From IMG/VR virus record IMGVR_UViG_3300029286_000237, positions 1 through 24,661 of that record: DNA of 24,661 nucleotides, one strand, 5' to 3'. Of this stretch, positions 1,953-11,173 are shown in pieces. The notes under the pieces were generated by a model. That model saw only the letters and a program-made list of their open reading frames with translations, was not told the DNA's origin and made no database searches. The position numbers were made by a program, and so were the translations under genes. The DNA comes from a virus. Every line of letters starts with the position of its first letter. Position 1 is the stretch's first letter.

Positions 1953-2954
1953 TTATGCTTTTGTTTTCATTATAGGCCACACAGTATGGCGCAGGAATTT
2001 TTGATTACGAGCAAACTTTCCCCAACCATACCAGCTTCCCATTGAACGACGAAGTTTTTTAAAACGAAGAGTGCCTTTTCTATAGCGCCTTACGGCTTTC
2101 ATGGCATGGCCGCGAATAGAACGACGTAGTAAACGATATTCAGCAAATGTACGATAGCCTAAAAAATCTACGCCTTCAATATGTGGAGGAAAAATTTGAT
2201 GATTTGGCTTGAGCTCTAAATGCTCTTGTCTTAATTGTTCTTTCATTTCCTTAAGAAGACAATGAAGAGTGCGTCTGTCTTTAGCAAATACAATTAAATC
2301 ATCAACATAGCGAAAGTAATACTTAACGCGTTTTTCATCTTTTAGCCAATGATCAAAAGGAGTTAGGGCAATGTTGCCAAAATATTGACTTAGATAATTG
2401 CCAATAGGAATACCAGGGGCACTATCAATAATTTCATCAAGCAATGCCAACATTTGCTTGTCTTTGATCTTGCGACGTAAATGAAGCTTAAGCCTGTCGT
2501 GATCAACTGAAGGGTAGTATTTCCTGATGTCACATTTTAAGCAATAGCGCGTACCTTGAGGGTCGTTGCGCATTGCTCGTTGCATTCGCTTTAAAGCATC
2601 ATGCACTCCTCGTTCTGGAATGGAGCCATAGGTATCACGAATAAACCATGCATGCCAAATTGGTGCTAACACTTGCACCACGGCATGATGCAAAATTCTG
2701 TCAGGGAAATATGGAAGAACATAGATGTAGCGTTCTTTTCCGCGTTCGTTGACTATAAAATTTTCGTATTGTCCTGTTTCAAACAAGCCTGTTTTTAGAA
2801 GCCATTGAAGAGTGAGCAAACAATCTCCTTTGTTAGCTTCTGTCCATTGCACAATTTTTCTATTGCGTTTCCCTCTGCTAGCAAAATGATGCGCCCATTC
2901 TAAATTTTCCAAATCATAAACTTGTTCATATAAATGACCATGACGTTTTGGCAT
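1953..2954 (-). CDS. DGR-type reverse transcriptase, 333 aa
   Basis: This enzyme should copy the template-repeat RNA into cDNA with errors at adenines, for retrohoming into the variable repeat. Reverse transcriptase motifs are visible in order: LPYFPDRILHHAV (80-92), CDIRKYYPSV with the first catalytic Asp D142 (141-150), IPIGNYLSQYFGN (182-194, the GNxxSQ signature typical of DGR and related bacterial enzymes), YFRYVDD with catalytic D218/D219 (213-219), and GVDFLGY (261-267). A basic C-terminal thumb follows (YRKGTLRFKKLRR). Length is normal for the DGR class, with no extra maturase or endonuclease domain. An AGGA ribosome binding site lies 9 nt before the ATG. The template repeat and its spacer lie immediately upstream and the target gene just before that, which rules out a group II intron enzyme. 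Confidence 0.95.
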   Translation of the reverse strand: MPKRHGHLYEQVYDLENLEWAHHFASRGKRNRKIVQWTEANKGDCLLTLQWLLKTGLFETGQYENFIVNERGKERYIYVLPYFPDRILHHAVVQVLAPIWHAWFIRDTYGSIPERGVHDALKRMQRAMRNDPQGTRYCLKCDIRKYYPSVDHDRLKLHLRRKIKDKQMLALLDEIIDSAPGIPIGNYLSQYFGNIALTPFDHWLKDEKRVKYYFRYVDDLIVFAKDRRTLHCLLKEMKEQLRQEHLELKPNHQIFPPHIEGVDFLGYRTFAEYRLLRRSIRGHAMKAVRRYRKGTLRFKKLRRSMGSWYGWGKFARNQKFLRHTVWPIMKTKA

Positions 2955-3134
2955 TAGAACTGTTCCTGAGATCCTTCACTACATTCGCGGGCAAAGCCCC
3001 TACTAGCGGTGCGGGAAATTCCCGAACAGCAGACTTAGATTTCCCCTGCAAATAAAAAAAGAATGCAGGCGAGGCGAATAGTCAACACAATATTAACGGA
3101 AATGATCGTTAGCAAAATGAATTGTTGCTCAGGA
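2955..3134 (-). other. Spacer between template repeat and reverse transcriptase, with hairpins
   Basis: This 180-bp non-coding stretch separates TR from the reverse transcriptase start. It holds two short inverted repeats: 3012-3024 (CGGGAA-A-TTCCCG, a 6-bp stem) and 2989-2999 (GGGC-AAA-GCCC, a 4-bp stem). A weaker 5-bp stem, AGCAA/TTGCT in the transcript, lies just after TR (3111-3129). In the Bordetella phage DGR the equivalent spacer RNA is needed to prime cDNA synthesis, so this region is the likely counterpart. That role is inferred from position and structure only. Confidence 0.6.
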
Positions 3135-3259
3135 AGTGCGAAAGGAGGGAGCCAATATTATCGTTGGTATTAGAAGGGTCATTATTGGCATTGAAATTCC
3201 ACGGACCGCATTCCGCCTCATTATTCGAGTTGCCGCCGACATTGAGCACTCGCCACCCC
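3135..3259 (-). repeat. DGR template repeat (TR)
   Basis: This 125-bp segment aligns without gaps to the VR at 3312-3436, offset by 177 bp. There are 23 differences, and every one is an adenine in the coding (minus) strand of TR. Translated in the target frame, TR carries eleven AAC or AAT codons, the classic AAY arrangement that lets mutation reach many residues without creating stop codons. All eleven differ in VR. TR lies between the target gene and the reverse transcriptase on the same strand, the normal DGR order. Confidence 0.95.
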
Positions 3260-3277
3260 ATAACTACCCGCCTGTGA

Positions 3278-3302
3278 TATAATGAACCACCCTTTCACTA
3301 TA
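3278..3302 (-). promoter_or_regulatory. Candidate DGR target-site hairpin downstream of VR
   Basis: In the coding strand TATAGTGAA and TTCATTATA flank a 7-nt AGGGTGG loop, giving a 9-bp stem with one G-T pair. It begins 9 bp past the 3' end of VR. In the Bordetella phage DGR a hairpin or cruciform just downstream of VR marks the target for retrohoming. The loop here is longer than the 4-nt loop described there, so this is a candidate only. There is no following T-tract to suggest a terminator. Confidence 0.5.
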
Positions 3303-3309
3303 GCCTGCG

Positions 3310-5133
3310 CTAGCGCGAAAGGAGGGAGCCAATACCATCGCCGGTAAAAGAAGGGTCACCAAAGGCACGGAAACTCCACGGACCGCATTCCGCCCCAAAA
3401 AACGAGCTGCCGCCGACAACGAGCACCCGCCACCCCGATGTGCCATAAGTGCCATAGCGCATATCAGTCACATAAGTAGAAGTGGTGCCGCCATCATCAG
3501 GGAAGAAAAAGAGTCCAGCATCATCTCTAAAACCGCCAATGTACAAACCGTTTGAAGCAGTGCTCACTTGGTTATTTGTATCTGTGAAATTAGTAGTAGT
3601 GCTATCCGCAAAATTATTAGGATTAAGAGCTAAATAAATTTGGCCATTGGCGCCTGCATTGATATTTATGCCATGCACCCAGCGCCAGGTGCCAGCATAA
3701 TAATGCTCCACTCCTCGCCATTGCATTGCCGCTAAATCATCAGAACCAGCCGTGGAATTACGTCCGTCAGTGGTATTGTTAAATGTTGTATTACCTTTAG
3801 TATTTAAAATGCCAAGTTGATAATCACGATAGCCAGCCAGTGCGTTGTAATTATCACGTCCTCTGCCAATGCCAACGGTAGGATCTTGAATAAAATAATT
3901 GCGATATTCCATAACCGTCAGAAGCTGACAGGCATTCCATAGTGCATAATCACCATTCGCCCATCCAGAAGCAATAGCACGAGCCCTAGAAAGACCAGTG
4001 GCACGAGTGTGACTCGTATAAACGCCAGAAGCCGTGATACTTTGTAGCTTCGTGCCGTCAGTAGTGCCTTGATAAGCAGCAATGTAACGATAACGAATGG
4101 CAGAATTAGCATTAAAGCCGCTAATTGTCGTAGCAGTGCCACTGCTCGTGTAATAACCGAATGCACTACCATTCCACACTCTTGTTACGCCACTAGCATC
4201 ACGCTGCCCTACATAAGGCGATGGTTCAAAAACAGTTGCATTAGTGCCATCAATATATACAGTGCATTGCGCTGTAGTATCTCCACTCGCCCAAAATGCT
4301 GGATGCCTAATCCATTTGCTTTTTTCTCCTGCCCCTAAACCATCATATTCTGTTTTAGGCAACACATAATAAACTCTCAATGGATCAGTGGTAGACAATC
4401 CTGATGGCACCAATAATTTATATTCACCATCTACATCAGCACCAGCTACATTCTTCCATCCCAAGCCATCATTCCAATCAATACGAACAAAAAATTCAGG
4501 CACTTCCACCATTACATTACCACTTGCAGCCGTATTAATAATTCCTGTGGCCGTAACAGAACCATTGGCAGGAGTGCCTGAGGTGATGGGTACAATACAT
4601 TCCCATACAGCTCCTGCATGAGTAACACGATTACGGAAGTTGTAAGTGGTGCCACTCACCCATGCGCTTAAACCACTACGAATATAATTATTAGTGCTAC
4701 CATTACCAGCTTTATTCTCTCCTTCGTAAATTTTTAACCATTCACCAGCAAGATATGTACTATCTGCACCATCTAAATAATAATTAACAAAACCACTTGC
4801 ATGCACTCCCACTCGCCTCATTGAACTATGCACTCGTAAATCAGGCTGAGTGGTATAGCCAGCTCCTGCAGCCGCAGGCCCTGTAAAAGTACCTAAATTT
4901 AAAGTGTTGCGATATTCATAGTAAGTATCGTTAGTTTGATTCCAAATAAATGGTGTGGTATTTACCATGATGTCCGTATAGAACGGGCTGGTTCCTACGC
5001 CTAAATAAGTGCGAATGCCACTTACGGTTACTTTTTTGTTTGGTGTTACACCATCACTTACATCTTGAATGACAAATGCATCACCATCAGCTAATGCAGA
5101 TCCAATGTCGCTTAAGGCAGAAATTTTAGTCAT
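3310..5133 (-). CDS. DGR target protein: tail adhesin with C-type-lectin-like variable domain, 607 aa
   Basis: Probable receptor-binding tail protein. The N-terminus is fibre-like (MTKISALSDIGSALADGDAF). A segment at about 157-180 (WVSGTTYNFRNRV, then G-x-VWEC) resembles a small carbohydrate-binding module of the CBM5/12 kind. From about residue 375 the sequence resembles the C-type-lectin/FGE-like fold used by DGR variable proteins: LWNACQLLTVMEYRNYF, MQWRGVEHYYAGTWRWVHG, IGGFRDDAGLFF, then GWRVLVVGGS and AECGPW. The last 41 residues (567-607) are the variable repeat. Relative to TR, thirteen residues are replaced: 572, 576, 578, 579, 580, 587, 589, 591, 592, 596, 598, 600 and 607. The invariant GWRVL, VGG, AECGPW and DPS residues form the scaffold. 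The stop codon TAG lies at the VR edge. The gene starts 3 nt after the previous stop with no clear ribosome binding site, so it is probably coupled. Confidence 0.93.
   Translation of the reverse strand: MTKISALSDIGSALADGDAFVIQDVSDGVTPNKKVTVSGIRTYLGVGTSPFYTDIMVNTTPFIWNQTNDTYYEYRNTLNLGTFTGPAAAGAGYTTQPDLRVHSSMRRVGVHASGFVNYYLDGADSTYLAGEWLKIYEGENKAGNGSTNNYIRSGLSAWVSGTTYNFRNRVTHAGAVWECIVPITSGTPANGSVTATGIINTAASGNVMVEVPEFFVRIDWNDGLGWKNVAGADVDGEYKLLVPSGLSTTDPLRVYYVLPKTEYDGLGAGEKSKWIRHPAFWASGDTTAQCTVYIDGTNATVFEPSPYVGQRDASGVTRVWNGSAFGYYTSSGTATTISGFNANSAIRYRYIAAYQGTTDGTKLQSITASGVYTSHTRATGLSRARAIASGWANGDYALWNACQLLTVMEYRNYFIQDPTVGIGRGRDNYNALAGYRDYQLGILNTKGNTTFNNTTDGRNSTAGSDDLAAMQWRGVEHYYAGTWRWVHGININAGANGQIYLALNPNNFADSTTTNFTDTNNQVSTASNGLYIGGFRDDAGLFFFPDDGGTTSTYVTDMRYGTYGTSGWRVLVVGGSSFFGAECGPWSFRAFGDPSFTGDGIGSLLSR
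3312..3335 (-). promoter_or_regulatory. Candidate IMH (initiation of mutagenic homing) at the 3' end of VR
   Basis: The last bases of VR before the stop codon are GC-rich with a pyrimidine run (GGCTCCCTCCTTTCGC in the coding strand) and are identical in TR up to one A-to-G difference near the very end (TR 3137, VR 3314). That GC-rich, conserved 3' boundary is where the IMH element sits in characterised DGRs. The G in VR also completes a small palindrome, GCGCTAGCGC (3307-3316), centred on the stop codon, which TR lacks. Confidence 0.55.
3312..3436 (-). repeat. DGR variable repeat (VR)
   Basis: The 125-bp 3' end of the target gene is the diversified copy of TR (3135-3259). The 23 substitutions all fall on TR adenines; the other 8 of the 31 TR adenines are unchanged. 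They cause 13 amino-acid replacements and one silent change (CGA to CGG at residue 569). The resulting residues are Val, Ser, Phe, Gly and Arg, as expected from random replacement of adenine in AAY codons. No other copy of this repeat was seen in the window. Confidence 0.95.
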
Positions 5134-5136
5134 TGT

Positions 5137-6474
5137 TTAACCGAGGATGAAAGAAATGCTGCCTTCTGTTTGCAGCGGTTGACCGTCTTCTAATTCTATT
5201 GGTTGAGAACGGTCGGGATCATATACAAAATCATAGCGCCAAGCAAAGTATTCTTCAACACTTCTTAACTCTTTTGTGCTTAATAGCGTGTCAAAAGCCG
5301 CAAAAGCAAACATAGTGCCAGTAAAAAAACCAGCACTTGCATTAGCATTGGCTCCCAAGCGATACTCCGAACCTGCATTATAAGTGAATTGAGCTGTAAA
5401 ACGATTGCTTAAAAAATCCCAACGATTACCATTAATCCGTAATTCAATGCCATAATCTTGACTTGCTTGCACACTAAATACTAATGTGCCATTTGCTGAC
5501 ATATTACGAGGAAAATCACTTAAAATTGCATTGCTAAACACACCAAAATCACCATTTCCGTCACCACTGCGCCATCGAGGTGATGTATTGTTCAACGTGC
5601 TAAAAATATTAAAATCACTATCTCCTCTTGCTACTGATTCCCCAATGGAAGCAACAACTACAATGGTTGCAGCATCAGGAAAAGACGATGCAATATTACC
5701 AAAAGATAAAGAATCATTACTTCCATCAAAAACAATACCAGGTTTACTATTTAATACATTAATGGTGTAAATAGGTCTATTAGCTGAAGTGTCTTGTTGG
5801 GCTATCGTGCGACCCAAGACATCTCGCCATTGCACCACGCCATTACTACCATCCAAATTAAACGAGCTATGCTCGGAATCCAACCAAATTCGATTGGAGC
5901 TATAGGCAGAAGGTGGTGCAAGGTAAAGAGGGCTTTTTCTTGTAGTCCATGAAGGTTGCTCCCCTATTGTTAAATATTGCTTGTAACGTACATAATAATT
6001 AGACCAATCATAAACAGTGCCATTATAATTAAAACCACTAACAGTAATAGTAGTTGACCGCACTGCTCCTAATTTATATTCCGCTCCTGTGTTATAGTCG
6101 CCTGAAATAGTAGGAGAAAAATAACTAGCAGTAGATGGCCCATAAATAATATTAGCCGCATCAGTGAAGGGGCGGTCATTATTAACAATATCAGCTTGAA
6201 TATTACTTATAAATGAATCTCCATTTTTATTAATTTTTTGAGCAAAAATAGCAGCCGCCGCAGACGAACCAGACAGTGCAGCTACTATTTGCTCTTCTAA
6301 CGAGCTGGAAAGACCAATAATAGCCTGGTAGTCATTGCTATCTACGCCTGAAGCGGATGTATTAACCAATAAAGCTAAATCACGACGATCAAAACCTAAA
6401 TTATCCCAGCAAGTATTTCTATTTAAAATTTCTGATAAATTGCTAGCAGCACGAAAACCGTATTGTTGTACCAT
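5137..6474 (-). CDS. Tail fibre or adhesin with LamG/ConA-like domain, 445 aa
   Basis: The N-terminus (FRAASNLSEILNRNTCWDNL) has the NLS-x-NLG fibre motif shared with the next gene upstream. The middle is a Ser/Thr/Gly-rich beta region (TITVSGFNYNGTVYDWSNYY). From about residue 190 the sequence fits a concanavalin-A/LamG-like jelly roll: NRIWLDSE, GVVQWRDVLG, SKPGIVFDGSNDSLSFG, ELRINGN, then FTGTMFAFAAFDTLLSTKEL and a helix EEYFAWRYDF, the usual closing pattern of such domains. These domains commonly bind glycans, so a role in surface recognition is plausible. The ATG overlaps the stop of the upstream gene (TAATG), and the DGR target follows after 3 nt. Confidence 0.8.
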   Translation of the reverse strand: MVQQYGFRAASNLSEILNRNTCWDNLGFDRRDLALLVNTSASGVDSNDYQAIIGLSSSLEEQIVAALSGSSAAAAIFAQKINKNGDSFISNIQADIVNNDRPFTDAANIIYGPSTASYFSPTISGDYNTGAEYKLGAVRSTTITVSGFNYNGTVYDWSNYYVRYKQYLTIGEQPSWTTRKSPLYLAPPSAYSSNRIWLDSEHSSFNLDGSNGVVQWRDVLGRTIAQQDTSANRPIYTINVLNSKPGIVFDGSNDSLSFGNIASSFPDAATIVVVASIGESVARGDSDFNIFSTLNNTSPRWRSGDGNGDFGVFSNAILSDFPRNMSANGTLVFSVQASQDYGIELRINGNRWDFLSNRFTAQFTYNAGSEYRLGANANASAGFFTGTMFAFAAFDTLLSTKELRSVEEYFAWRYDFVYDPDRSQPIELEDGQPLQTEGSISFILG

Positions 6475-7028
6475 TAGTTTGGCCCCACTTTAGCAAATAA
6501 AATAAATTCATTAGTTTCAATGGGAACAGCTTTATCTGGAGATGAAAGTATCCCTGATGTCATTGCTGGTGTCCATCGAAGTGCTGAAGTTAATTTTAAA
6601 GAAGATAACACAATGGGGAATAATGCAGTAGAACCGGAAAATGGCGATGAAGATAATGAAGCCAGTGGTGTTCCATTCACTCTTAAGCCGGATGCTGTTA
6701 ATGCACCTCTATTAATTAAAAAAACACCTGATGAAATAGGGGAAGCTTTTAGTAATGAATTTTCTTCAACAACAACAGTTGCAGACGTAGTATCAACAGC
6801 AGTGGTAAGGCGAGGTTGGACTAACGTCGTAAGCCCTTTTATTAAAACAAAATCACGAACAGAAGTATTTCTAACATTACTAAGCGCAAGAATATCTTTT
6901 CCTTTAATGGTAATTGTTGTTACACCTGTAATTGTATATTGAACACCATTGCCCAAGTTGTCCCATGTTGCTTCAATGCTTGCTACATCACTTAAATTAT
7001 TCGCACTAATCAGCCCTGGTAATGCCAT
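6474..7028 (-). CDS. Small tail-fibre-like protein with NLSD motif, 184 aa
   Basis: It starts MALPGLISANNLSDVASIEATWDNLG, split here as MALPGLISANNLSDVAS plus ATWDNLG. This is the same N-terminal fibre signature as the 445-aa and 174-aa proteins. The rest is beta-rich (ITGVTTITIKGKDILALSN) with repeated SG-hydrophobic steps (ISSGVFL, TASGLRV, MTSGILS) and no recognised enzymatic domain. Both ends overlap neighbouring genes by one base in TAATG junctions, so translation is probably chained through this cluster. It may be a short fibre or an adaptor between the tail tip and the larger adhesins. Confidence 0.75.
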   Translation of the reverse strand: MALPGLISANNLSDVASIEATWDNLGNGVQYTITGVTTITIKGKDILALSNVRNTSVRDFVLIKGLTTLVQPRLTTAVDTTSATVVVEENSLLKASPISSGVFLINRGALTASGLRVNGTPLASLSSSPFSGSTALFPIVLSSLKLTSALRWTPAMTSGILSSPDKAVPIETNEFILFAKVGPN

Positions 7029-9415
7029 TATTGTTCCTCCCAGTTAAGAGTGGCACTTGCAACGCCACTTCCAACCCTAGCAGTAGCAACGACAAATAGC
7101 GCTCCACTGTTGTTTATTGTACCGGGCTTACCAGTAATAAACATTTTGTCAGGACCAAATAAACCACTTAAATCAAACTGTTTCATTTCATTCGCTCCCA
7201 AGAAATATGTAGCTACTCGCTGAGGGGCAAATAAAGTGCGATAACCTTGTGTATCAACAAGCACTGCGGATAGCGGGTCAGAAGATGATCCTTCAAATTT
7301 ATTTGCAATCGTTACAGCACCTCCTGCCGCTGTAGTATCTTGCGTAAGCCCACTTGCGTTGGCCCATTGAGTGATTGCTGTTGTAGAGCCACTGTTTGGT
7401 GTTATACGTTCTGTTGGAGTGCCTAAAGCTAATACCACATCATTTAATTGCGAGCTATCCATTAATTCTGCTACTAATACCATGGGCCAAGGATTGGTCA
7501 CGCCAGTTAAAGTGCGAATAGTACCACCAAATGATACCAATGTATTAGAAGTGCCACTGGGAAAAGTAATTGAAAATTCAGCTTGCCTATAAGGTTCAAA
7601 AGGTAAATCTATCTCTCCTACAATATTACCATTCCTATCAAAATTTAAACCTGTATATTTACTAGCGAACCACATAACATCTTGACTTGTACTATATGCA
7701 CCACTAGCTTGAAACCACGCGCCTAGTCTCCATTGACCGCCTCCACTATTAAAAAAGATCGAGCCAGTAGCACCACTAGCGCCTGTAGGCGTGATGCCAC
7801 TACTAATGGCATAGCTATTCATGCGCGATAGACGAATTGATGTGGTGCCTGCTGGGATGGCTCTGTCTGTTGTTATTTGAGTGAGTCCAGGATTGATTGC
7901 TACAACATGCGTGTTGAAAATATTAGTTCCTGTGACGCGCACACGACGACCAGTTAAATAATTAGTAGAGCCACTTAGTTCTGCTGAAATATCAGCAAAT
8001 GTACCTCCGCTAATTTGCAATACGTTGTCATTAACACGAGTTATAGTTAAGCCAGAACTAGCCGATTTTGTTAAATTAGTGCCATTGCCATAATAATAAC
8101 TTTCCCCTGCTCCCGTTCCATTTCCTTGAAGCACTAAATCAAAACGAGCTTCCGTGGAAGCAAATGCAGCCAAACTAACTGGATAAACTGCTTTTTGGTT
8201 ATCTATGTTATTAATTTGCCCTTTTACTTGTAAGCCTAAAATTGCTCTACTTGTACTATCAATATTCTTTGCTCCGCCTAAAGCTGCGCTACCAAGAGTA
8301 ACAGTGCCTTTATCACCACCATCAATATAAACACTACTGCCATATAAATTAATGAAAGCAGGATTTACAGCTCCAGCGGTATTACGTGCTTGAATAAACA
8401 TTTTCATGAAAGCACTTTTTAAGCTTGGAAATTCAAGTTGATTTTCAATTACCACATAATGTAATTCCACCCATCGTGCTTCGTCATGATCTACTGGTAC
8501 ATAAGCTAAAAATTTAGCTCCTACGGCGCCATACCAGCTAAATTCAATTTTAAACATTGTTACTCTTGACAAATCAAGGCCCCAATTTGTTAACCCTTCA
8601 TTAATTAAAATTTTATCTCCAGTCCATTCTAGTCGAGGGAATTTCACTTCTTCAATGGTATTAAGAATAGAATTAAATCGTCGATAGATAATAAATAAAT
8701 CGGTGCCTTTTTCTAGCTGAAAATAATAACCATCCCCATAATCATTCCTGCATCCCCATTGCACCACTTCTCCGGCATAGCTGCTGCCAGTAGACATTCG
8801 TGTGCCAAAAGTAAATCCAGTAACACGACCTGGTTGATAGCGAAAAGTACGCTTAGTTTCCCAATATGCATTCATCACACCATTGGTATAACCACCAGGG
8901 AAGCGTCCACTATTGTCGTCAATAGTAAATGAAAAACTGACGGGAGGTGGAAAACAATATGCCTGCACTGCACTTTCTGTTGGTAGATGGCGATTGAAGA
9001 TGCCATAACTATCCCTGTAAGTCCAGTCCGAAGGGTCTAAATAATAGGTGTAGAAACCGTCGGACGTCCATTCTTTAGTATTTACACCATAGATATTTAC
9101 GTTTTCCAGTAAACTCAATGCAGTTTCAGAACGTGGAATCCCCAGTAAGCTAGTATCAACTTCACTTTGTTGCCTATTAGTTACATTAACTAGCGCAGGT
9201 CCATCTTCATCATTTGTAATTACAACTGGATAACAAGACTCACTTAATGCTTGAAATTCAAAGCTTTCTCCCGTTAGTTGCTCACTGGTATTACCGTCAA
9301 TTAAATCCACCCCACTAGCAAAATCAATTAACTCGGCTTCTGTTTCAATTAACCCTAGTGCTTCAACATCTTCCTCCAACTGGTAATAATCTTCAAGATC
9401 TTCTTGAAATGTCAT
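7028..9415 (-). CDS. Large tail structural or fibre protein, 795 aa, paralogue of the 582-aa protein
   Basis: After an acidic N-terminus (DLEDYYQLEEDVEALG), the protein shares ordered blocks with the 582-aa product: SLLGIPRSETAL (89-100), FRYQPGRVTGFTFG (191-204), SWYGAVGAKFLAYVP (293-307) with EARWV just after, and YIDGGDKGT (363-371). The shared core therefore covers roughly residues 83-372. The C-terminal half is specific to this protein and beta-rich, with many Gly, Ser and Thr residues, consistent with a distal receptor-binding region. I recall the FRYQPGR block from structural proteins of cyanobacterial phages, which is part of the reason for the host inference. No catalytic motif is evident. 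The start is 9 nt downstream of the paralogue's stop. Confidence 0.8.
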   Translation of the reverse strand: MTFQEDLEDYYQLEEDVEALGLIETEAELIDFASGVDLIDGNTSEQLTGESFEFQALSESCYPVVITNDEDGPALVNVTNRQQSEVDTSLLGIPRSETALSLLENVNIYGVNTKEWTSDGFYTYYLDPSDWTYRDSYGIFNRHLPTESAVQAYCFPPPVSFSFTIDDNSGRFPGGYTNGVMNAYWETKRTFRYQPGRVTGFTFGTRMSTGSSYAGEVVQWGCRNDYGDGYYFQLEKGTDLFIIYRRFNSILNTIEEVKFPRLEWTGDKILINEGLTNWGLDLSRVTMFKIEFSWYGAVGAKFLAYVPVDHDEARWVELHYVVIENQLEFPSLKSAFMKMFIQARNTAGAVNPAFINLYGSSVYIDGGDKGTVTLGSAALGGAKNIDSTSRAILGLQVKGQINNIDNQKAVYPVSLAAFASTEARFDLVLQGNGTGAGESYYYGNGTNLTKSASSGLTITRVNDNVLQISGGTFADISAELSGSTNYLTGRRVRVTGTNIFNTHVVAINPGLTQITTDRAIPAGTTSIRLSRMNSYAISSGITPTGASGATGSIFFNSGGGQWRLGAWFQASGAYSTSQDVMWFASKYTGLNFDRNGNIVGEIDLPFEPYRQAEFSITFPSGTSNTLVSFGGTIRTLTGVTNPWPMVLVAELMDSSQLNDVVLALGTPTERITPNSGSTTAITQWANASGLTQDTTAAGGAVTIANKFEGSSSDPLSAVLVDTQGYRTLFAPQRVATYFLGANEMKQFDLSGLFGPDKMFITGKPGTINNSGALFVVATARVGSGVASATLNWEEQ

Positions 9416-9424
9416 AAGCTTTGC

Positions 9425-11173
9425 CTACACTTGCTCTTCCCAGGTTAAACTAGCGCTCATGCTAACAGTAGCAGCAGATCCTTGCCCGAATACATACAAT
9501 GTATCTCCTGATGCTGCAGTCAATGGATAAGACAAATAGTCTTTGTTATAACCAAAATATGGCGCCAAATCAATATCTACGCCGCCTGCTCCTACAAAAA
9601 ATGTTGCAACTGTAGTGCCACCAGATACCACTGTAATTCCACTGGTAGTAGTAAATTCAATGGGAGACAGTGAATCAGCAGAAGTAAATGAAGGTGTTCC
9701 AGATACAAGAGTTGGATTTTTAATTAGTTTTACTACAGCCCTACCATCACCACCAATCCCCATTCTTGTTGGATACACTTGCATCCGATTGCGAATGGCA
9801 CTAGCTCCTACTGTGCTTTTGGTGCGCAATGCAAGCAGCATGGTGCCGCTAGTTGTTACGCTTCTGTCTATTGAATTACTTTGTGAGCGAGCGGTAATTG
9901 TTCCTTTATCACCACCATCAATATAATAAGATGCACCATATTTATATAAACTATTTGCATTACCACTGCTTCCTTTCTGCACTAAGTATGAAATAGGCAG
10001 TGTTGGATTAGCGAGACTAGGGCTTGTTAGTTGATTAGAAGCTCGCAAATGATGAATCCTCACCCATCGAGCCTCTCCTACTGTTGTAGCATCTGGCACA
10101 TAAGCTAAGAAATGACCACCAACAGCACCATACCAACTATATTCAATTTTATACATTGTAACTTTTGAAAAATCTATATCCCATACGCTTTGTTTTGTTT
10201 CAATATCACCTTCGTCAGTGGTAACAGCAGTTCCTGGTGTATAAGTAACATTAGGGGAGCCCGCTGTACCACCAATGCTTACGCTAAAACTATCTCCACC
10301 AGGGGTTCTGTCTGAATAGTATTGAGTGCGAGTTAAAGCATCTAGACGGTCATGACTAAAAAACTTACGTGGCACTCGATATTCATAAGTGTAGCGGGCA
10401 GAGTTAGGCACTACTAAATAATTTGCAGCAACAGTAGCAGTGCCATCAGTTGAAGCATTACTGCCAATATTATTGCCAACACCTTGTAAACTTAAATCAA
10501 ACAAAGCAGCATGAATATAAGTAAGACCTGCGCGAACAATCACCAAATCAGTGCCTGCTGTACCACGATCCCCATCACTAACATTTGCAGTGCGAATGCC
10601 ACTTTCATTGCTTTCAAATGCACTGGTGCGTCTTACACAATAAAAGTTAGTTTCTTTGTCTCCAATAGCAGTTTGCCCTCCGCCTTGCACTTCCAAATAG
10701 TAACCATCGCGCTTATCAAAAGCACCAAATTTTTTAATATCAGTAATATTTGTGCTTAAATCTACGCGCAAACCAAAAGTAGCAGCACTAACTCGTCCTG
10801 GTTGATAACGAAAAAAACGTTTGCTGCTTAATATTTGATATGCATTAGTAGCGGCTGTACCTAATGCGACTTTAGCTGCACTTTCAGAAGCAATGTGAGT
10901 GGTGGCCCCTGTTCCTTCACTTGCCCATTCATTAGGATTAATGTCATAAGTGGTAACATCAGCAAAAATACCAAGCGCCACTTCAGCACGAGGAATACCA
11001 AGCAAGCTCAAGCTAACTTCACTGATTTGCTGGTTTTGCACCACCACTGGCACGGCTTCTTGATCAGAAGCAATTACTACTGGCAAGCTTTTATCTGCTG
11101 TTTGCGGACCAGGAGGAATTGGTGCTGTACGTCCTACCGTTACAACTGATACGCCTTCTTTTAAATCAGCCAT
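9425..11173 (-). CDS. Large tail structural or fibre protein, 582 aa, paralogue of the 795-aa protein
   Basis: It carries the same blocks in the same order as its downstream neighbour: SLLGIPRAEVAL (56-67), FRYQPGRVSAATFG (121-134), SWYGAVGGHFLAYVP (346-360) and YYIDGGDKGT (417-426). The N-terminus is different and shorter (VSVVTVGRTAPIPPGPQ, then LPVVIASDQ). A larger insertion separates the second and third blocks, with repeats of charged and aromatic residues (YTYEYRVPRKFFSHDRLDAL). The C-terminus (VTWEEQ-like: SASLTWEEQV) also matches the end of the neighbour (TLNWEEQ). This is a tandem duplication followed by divergence. A GAGG ribosome binding site lies just before the ATG. Confidence 0.8.
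   Translation of the reverse strand: MADLKEGVSVVTVGRTAPIPPGPQTADKSLPVVIASDQEAVPVVVQNQQISEVSLSLLGIPRAEVALGIFADVTTYDINPNEWASEGTGATTHIASESAAKVALGTAATNAYQILSSKRFFRYQPGRVSAATFGLRVDLSTNITDIKKFGAFDKRDGYYLEVQGGGQTAIGDKETNFYCVRRTSAFESNESGIRTANVSDGDRGTAGTDLVIVRAGLTYIHAALFDLSLQGVGNNIGSNASTDGTATVAANYLVVPNSARYTYEYRVPRKFFSHDRLDALTRTQYYSDRTPGGDSFSVSIGGTAGSPNVTYTPGTAVTTDEGDIETKQSVWDIDFSKVTMYKIEYSWYGAVGGHFLAYVPDATTVGEARWVRIHHLRASNQLTSPSLANPTLPISYLVQKGSSGNANSLYKYGASYYIDGGDKGTITARSQSNSIDRSVTTSGTMLLALRTKSTVGASAIRNRMQVYPTRMGIGGDGRAVVKLIKNPTLVSGTPSFTSADSLSPIEFTTTSGITVVSGGTTVATFFVGAGGVDIDLAPYFGYNKDYLSYPLTAASGDTLYVFGQGSAATVSMSASLTWEEQV

Follow-up and report, generated by a model that had tools for sequence, protein, structure and literature searches.

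The window (the whole stretch of DNA analysed, a linear virus record of 24,661 bases) contains what we consider, at a probability of roughly 95%, to be a genuine diversity-generating retroelement (DGR) aimed at a siphophage tail adhesin and rewriting the tip of that adhesin. Its carrier is a bacteriophage with close affinity to the phages of cyanobacteria. This reading is directly supported by adenine-only differences between a template repeat (TR) and a variable repeat (VR), by TR-to-VR copying within each lineage, by the position of the reverse transcriptase (RT) in the DGR clade, by purifying selection on the RT, and by the tail-operon context. The machine itself is of a known, standard kind, and the added value lies in its set of close relatives. 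All DGR features are on the minus strand:

3310..5133, minus: DGR target, a tail adhesin of 607 aa (phrog_5302) in tail-operon position
4999..5133, minus: target N-terminus, an anchor of about 45 residues
4573..4665, minus: CBM_5_12-like carbohydrate-binding segment, residues 157-187 (Pfam PF02839)
3313..4176, minus: putative C-terminal receptor-binding domain in the phrog_5302 region, probable C-type-lectin fold
3312-3436, minus: VR, the final 125 nt of the target gene, to the first stop-codon base
3260..3311, minus: VR-TR spacer, 52 nt, predicted in some but not all relatives to form a short hairpin that surrounds the target stop codon
3135-3259, minus: TR, 125 nt, with 11 AAY codons that keep to the target reading frame
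3135-3154, minus: candidate IMH* at the TR 3' end, 20 nt, with one fixed A versus G in VR
2955..3134, minus: non-coding TR-RT spacer, 180 nt, likely the 3' part of the DGR RNA
1953..2954, minus: DGR reverse transcriptase, 333 aa (Pfam RVT_1, PDB 8ub7 match, DGR clade)
2385..2405, minus: RT motif IGNYLSQ, residues 184-190, the DGR form of the group II intron QG...SP motif
2298..2309, minus: RT catalytic motif YVDD, residues 216-219

A repeat search of the window returned the TR/VR pair as the top family, and no second VR or TR was found elsewhere in the window. Aligned with TR (3259-3135), VR (3436-3312) shows no gap in 125 nt and 23 mismatches, which comprise 13 A>G, 9 A>T and 1 A>C and all fall on adenines of TR. 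Thus 23 of the 31 TR adenines are changed versus none of the 94 non-A positions (hypergeometric P = 1.0e-18 from the window alone). All eleven TR AAY codons are altered in VR (11/11), giving 13 amino-acid changes, and VR is free of stops. VR extends to the first base of the stop because the target stop codon lies at 3312-3310. A preliminary description, made from the sequence of the window, had reported this alignment, the adenine-only differences and the codon and amino-acid changes, and our recount agrees with its coordinates and counts, with a single refinement. The final A/G difference (GCACT in TR, GCGCT in VR) is constant in 5/5 TR/VR pairs, for which reason it is best read as the difference between IMH* and IMH rather than as a random hit, leaving 22 stochastic changes in the window. 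Since VR and TR show no non-A difference, neither repeat has fixed a point mutation after the most recent copying event.

Scans of viral contigs identified related cassettes in L002/L008, L003, L004/L006/L020, L005 (an RT fragment) and L007, and a search with a 20-base pattern from the TR 3' edge added L017. Across the five distinct loci with both repeats (the window included, and the last 5 nt omitted), 111/151 TR adenines differ in VR versus 1/449 other bases (P 2e-85). In all ten lineage pairs the non-A substitutions of VR track those of TR, being equal in number in nine pairs (for example 6/88 and 6/88, or 15/84 and 15/84) and 8/88 versus 7/88 in the tenth, while VR adenine sites common to two lineages differ at 52-88%. 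Two copies drifting independently would not stay in step in this way; the pattern is instead the one predicted by one-way copying with adenine errors, which suggests that VR has been repeatedly overwritten from TR. This comparison makes it most likely that the DGR of the window has been active since the window and L007 diverged. A near-identical contig, L020, is 99.9% identical to the window over 13,384 bases and differs by 13 SNPs, none of them in VR or TR. The preliminary description had called diversification recent or ongoing; five lineages bear out "recent", but with 0/13 L020 SNPs in VR "ongoing" is over-stated at the finest scale.

Three further features of these contigs were observed. 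Five of the 13 SNPs between the window and L020 fall within 22 bases (window 8918-8939), inside gene 7028-9415. L003 (1-7) and L017 (1-8), which are independent contigs, both start 6-7 nt upstream of VR, and these starts at the 5' edge of VR may reflect an assembly break caused by population variability of VR or by the TR/VR repeat. L017 (484-1481) retains both repeats, but two breaks spread its RT over three frames, and at several places its TR reads A against a G in its own VR and in the other TRs; L017 represents either a decaying DGR or sequencing error.

The RT ORF matches Pfam RVT_1 and the reverse transcriptase family phrog_1423 (1e-110). Its best PDB match is 8ub7 ("Reverse transcriptase"), which we take to be the Bordetella BPP-1 bRT, over nearly the full length (3e-43), followed by group II intron RTs (6e-18), and direct tblastn gave 33% identity to BPP-1 brt. 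The IGNYLSQ motif resembles that of BPP-1 (IGSLTSQ) and of other DGR RTs, whereas outgroup RTs read QG...SP. In a maximum-likelihood tree of 20 RTs, 14 DGR-type RTs lie on one side of a branch with 100/100 support, opposite a small outgroup of six rows (group II intron, RT-Cas1 and retron-type/defence-type RTs); the Shewanella phage QDWS RT, first labelled as outgroup, had been moved to the DGR side before the tree was built on account of its IG...SQ motif. A supported set of eight comprises the RTs of the window, L002, L003, crAss-like cr55_1, Psychrobacillus phage Perkons, an E. eligens plasmid, Lactobacillus phage LBR48 and hankyphage p00; among the known systems, the RTs of cr55_1, Perkons, the E. 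eligens plasmid and LBR48 are the nearest, with 43-46% identity for cr55_1 and Perkons. These four RTs exceed that of the window in length, and an overlapping small gene comes after several of them; in the window, by contrast, a tail gene which is present in DGR-less relatives too begins 4 nt past the RT. The RT genes of the window and L003 are identical at 78, 90 and 50% of first, second and third codon positions, and the far greater divergence of third positions indicates purifying selection on the protein. The identification of a DGR-type RT in the preliminary description is therefore upheld by clade, motif and top structural match, as is its intact YVDD in an ORF of 333 aa.

Residues 320-606 of the target match phrog_5302 ("tail protein"), a family that also contains the genes adjoining the DGR-type RTs of the E. 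eligens plasmid and cr55_1, so that these two systems share a target family with the window. The target aligned to the RT-adjacent gene of E. eligens with an hhalign probability of 96% (2e-9), and it is homologous to the corresponding gene of cr55_1. By this kinship with other DGR targets, the C-terminus likely has a C-type-lectin fold. AlphaFold models of the whole target and of its last 237 residues had pLDDT values of 28 and 31, too poor for a fold search; no PDB sequence match was found for the C-terminus, profile comparison with Mtd showed no similarity, and comparison with ANMV-1 AdtA gave a weak match. The C-type-lectin-like C-terminus of the preliminary description is likely through homology, and its earlier wording was over-stated. 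The CBM_5_12-like segment is marginal (PF02839, 28.0 bits versus a cut-off of 26.2).

At least ten related loci, near-duplicates among them, have genes in this slot that open with the N-terminal 45 or so residues of the target (51-78% identity) but are unrelated to it beyond them. This marks the N-terminal part as an anchor that has been joined to different tips. In L054, L058, L059, L064, L069, L071, L076 and L077, the gene after the homologue of 5137-6474 has only its first 39-54 residues in common with the target; in these slot genes the anchor has been retained and the tip swapped.

The target gene comes behind those for the tape-measure, minor tail and J-like proteins and occupies the distal end of a tail operon of siphophage type, in keeping with the tail-adhesin operon of the preliminary description. 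The tail module is collinear with that of Synechococcus siphophage S-CBS4 for about 15 genes in order, starting at the tail assembly genes and continuing past the J-like protein, with gene-by-gene identity mostly of 35-65%, and S-CBS4 also provides the best phage match of the J-like protein (47%). The corresponding region of S-CBS4, however, has no match to the RT or target of the window. The S-CBS4-like tail module suggests a possible cyanobacterial host, and two scans of genome contigs for a host or prophage found no relatives in cellular genomes. Elsewhere in the module, 7028-9415 and 9425-11173 are neighbouring paralogues encoding virion proteins (31-38% identity in parts, both phrog_1645), and in two relatives some 500-640 additional bases lie within or ahead of the 6474-7028 homologue (L011:3599-4239 and L014:3719-4242). 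No DGR described in a cyanophage was found in the literature searched. A metagenomic survey drawing on the same data source reported over 30,000 DGRs (Roux et al. 2021, PMC8144416), and the contig of the window may already be among them.

The cassette resembles the BPP-1 DGR (mtd, avd, TR, brt) in its order of a target with a terminal VR, TR and RT on one strand, in RT length (333 versus 328 aa), in its adenine-specific differences and in having a tail adhesin as target. It differs in that Mtd has no sequence similarity to the target of the window, and in that BPP-1 has avd (bbp7, 128 aa) between VR and TR; here these repeats are 52 nt apart, TR and RT are separated by 180 nt, and 4 nt separate the RT from the next gene. 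No Avd-like ORF was found in the window or in the DGR-bearing relatives, all of them partial contigs, by comparison with the Avds of BPP-1, ACA1 and FP_Brigit. The direct comparison was used because PF05635 missed the known BPP-1 Avd and was unfit as a probe, and the BPP-1 and ACA1 Avds detected each other at 1e-4. Gene 1418-1948, next to the RT, also occurs in DGR-less relatives and is therefore not a DGR accessory. Avd is needed in BPP-1 and is reported for most DGRs, but not all have it. Its lack in this contig does not exclude membership among DGRs, and since the contigs are partial an Avd may lie elsewhere in the genome. The cassette described earlier as complete-looking is so for TR, VR, RT and RNA spacer, but not for Avd.

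An alignment of five loci revealed long invariant blocks in the TR-RT spacer, which is as conserved as the RT gene between the window and L002 (88 versus 88% identity) and more so between the window and L003 (81 versus 73%). The spacer folds better than shuffled sequences (z = -2.5), and in the consensus fold CCUGAG, just 3' of TR, pairs with CUCAGG, just before the RT start, forming a predicted closing helix; covariation gives no support to this helix because its pairs are invariant. A hairpin downstream of VR is predicted in the window, L007 and L009 and is absent in L002. Rfam returned no known RNA in the region.

In the proposed mechanism, TR and its downstream spacer would be transcribed as one RNA, and the DGR RT would copy the TR portion, misincorporating opposite adenines as the mismatch pattern suggests. 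The cDNA would then take the place of VR; by analogy with BPP-1, site and direction would probably be set by the 3'-terminal IMH region, and TR would be left unaltered by the cycle. The variable positions would be AAY codons, in which one or two changes at the As could not yield stops. The outcome would be a phage library, varied in residue at about 12 adhesin-tip positions, with which new receptors could be tried.

Six relatives have targets 71-79% identical to that of the window and the same flanking genes, with no DGR in their contigs. On a tree of the relatives, the distribution of DGRs requires at least four changes. L009 has a scar (L009:7810-7945) in which the target stop, the VR-TR spacer and the first TR bases are fused to the last 24 RT codons, and this direct joining of cassette remnants means that the cassette was deleted. 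L012 is 91% identical to the DGR-bearing L003 over 2.6 kb downstream, and the two are sisters in the tree (100/100), where L003 is placed by two genes only. The tips of three DGR-less relatives still differ from their nearest TR chiefly at adenines, with 24/31 A versus 5/89 other positions changed in L011 (P 2e-14), 24/31 versus 13/89 in L009 and 14/27 versus 6/93 in L012. L009 is certainly a case of loss rather than of a missing gain, and loss is likely in L011 and L012. The notion that the DGR-less relatives never had a DGR is ruled out for L009 by the scar, and the adenine footprint of L011 argues against it. The scrambled tips could also have been transferred from a DGR-bearing phage, or a DGR could reside elsewhere in those genomes.

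Could the cassette of the window be something other than a working DGR? Short tandem-like duplications do occur in fibre genes, and an ordinary duplication of the gene end might acquire differences at adenines through chance or composition. Such an origin is barely credible: it is refuted by the adenine-only pattern, which has a P of 1e-18 in the window and is one-sided in five loci, and by the adjacent RT, which the tree places in the DGR clade. An RT-based defence system (a retron or DRT) lying beside an unrelated repeat is just as improbable. PADLOC and NCBIfam RT models do match the RT domain, but every NCBIfam match is far below its cut-off, and we reject this reading on the IG...SQ motif, the grouping with DGR RTs in the tree, and the TR/VR pattern, the template following the reading frame of the target gene.

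A DGR that was active in the recent past and is now silent, its cassette intact in sequence and its VR fixed, deserves more weight but is still unlikely. It would fit the comparison with L020 (13.4 kb with 13 SNPs, all outside VR), the repeated loss of the cassette among relatives and the lack of a detected Avd in the contig. Against it, the RT is open, retains its catalytic motifs and is under strong purifying selection across relatives, and VR has no non-A difference from TR. We favour a genuine DGR that rewrites the adhesin tip; weighing against it are the lack of an Avd gene in cassette and contig, the identical VR of L020, and the missing VR-end hairpin in L002.

The five cassettes with TR and VR and the six DGR-less sister loci, with their scar and fossil adenine footprints, form an informative comparative set. 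They suggest, as a tentative proposal to which we give somewhat less than even odds, that in cyanophage-like siphoviruses the DGR is a dispensable optimiser: the tip would be scrambled, the retroelement deleted and the selected tip kept, several independent times, so that the adhesin slot would alternate between DGR-driven, DGR-less and completely replaced tips behind a conserved anchor. If true, this would also be the first DGR in relatives of cyanophages, and one that works without Avd. The relatives make the time for which a mutator is retained after a receptor has been found testable by comparison.
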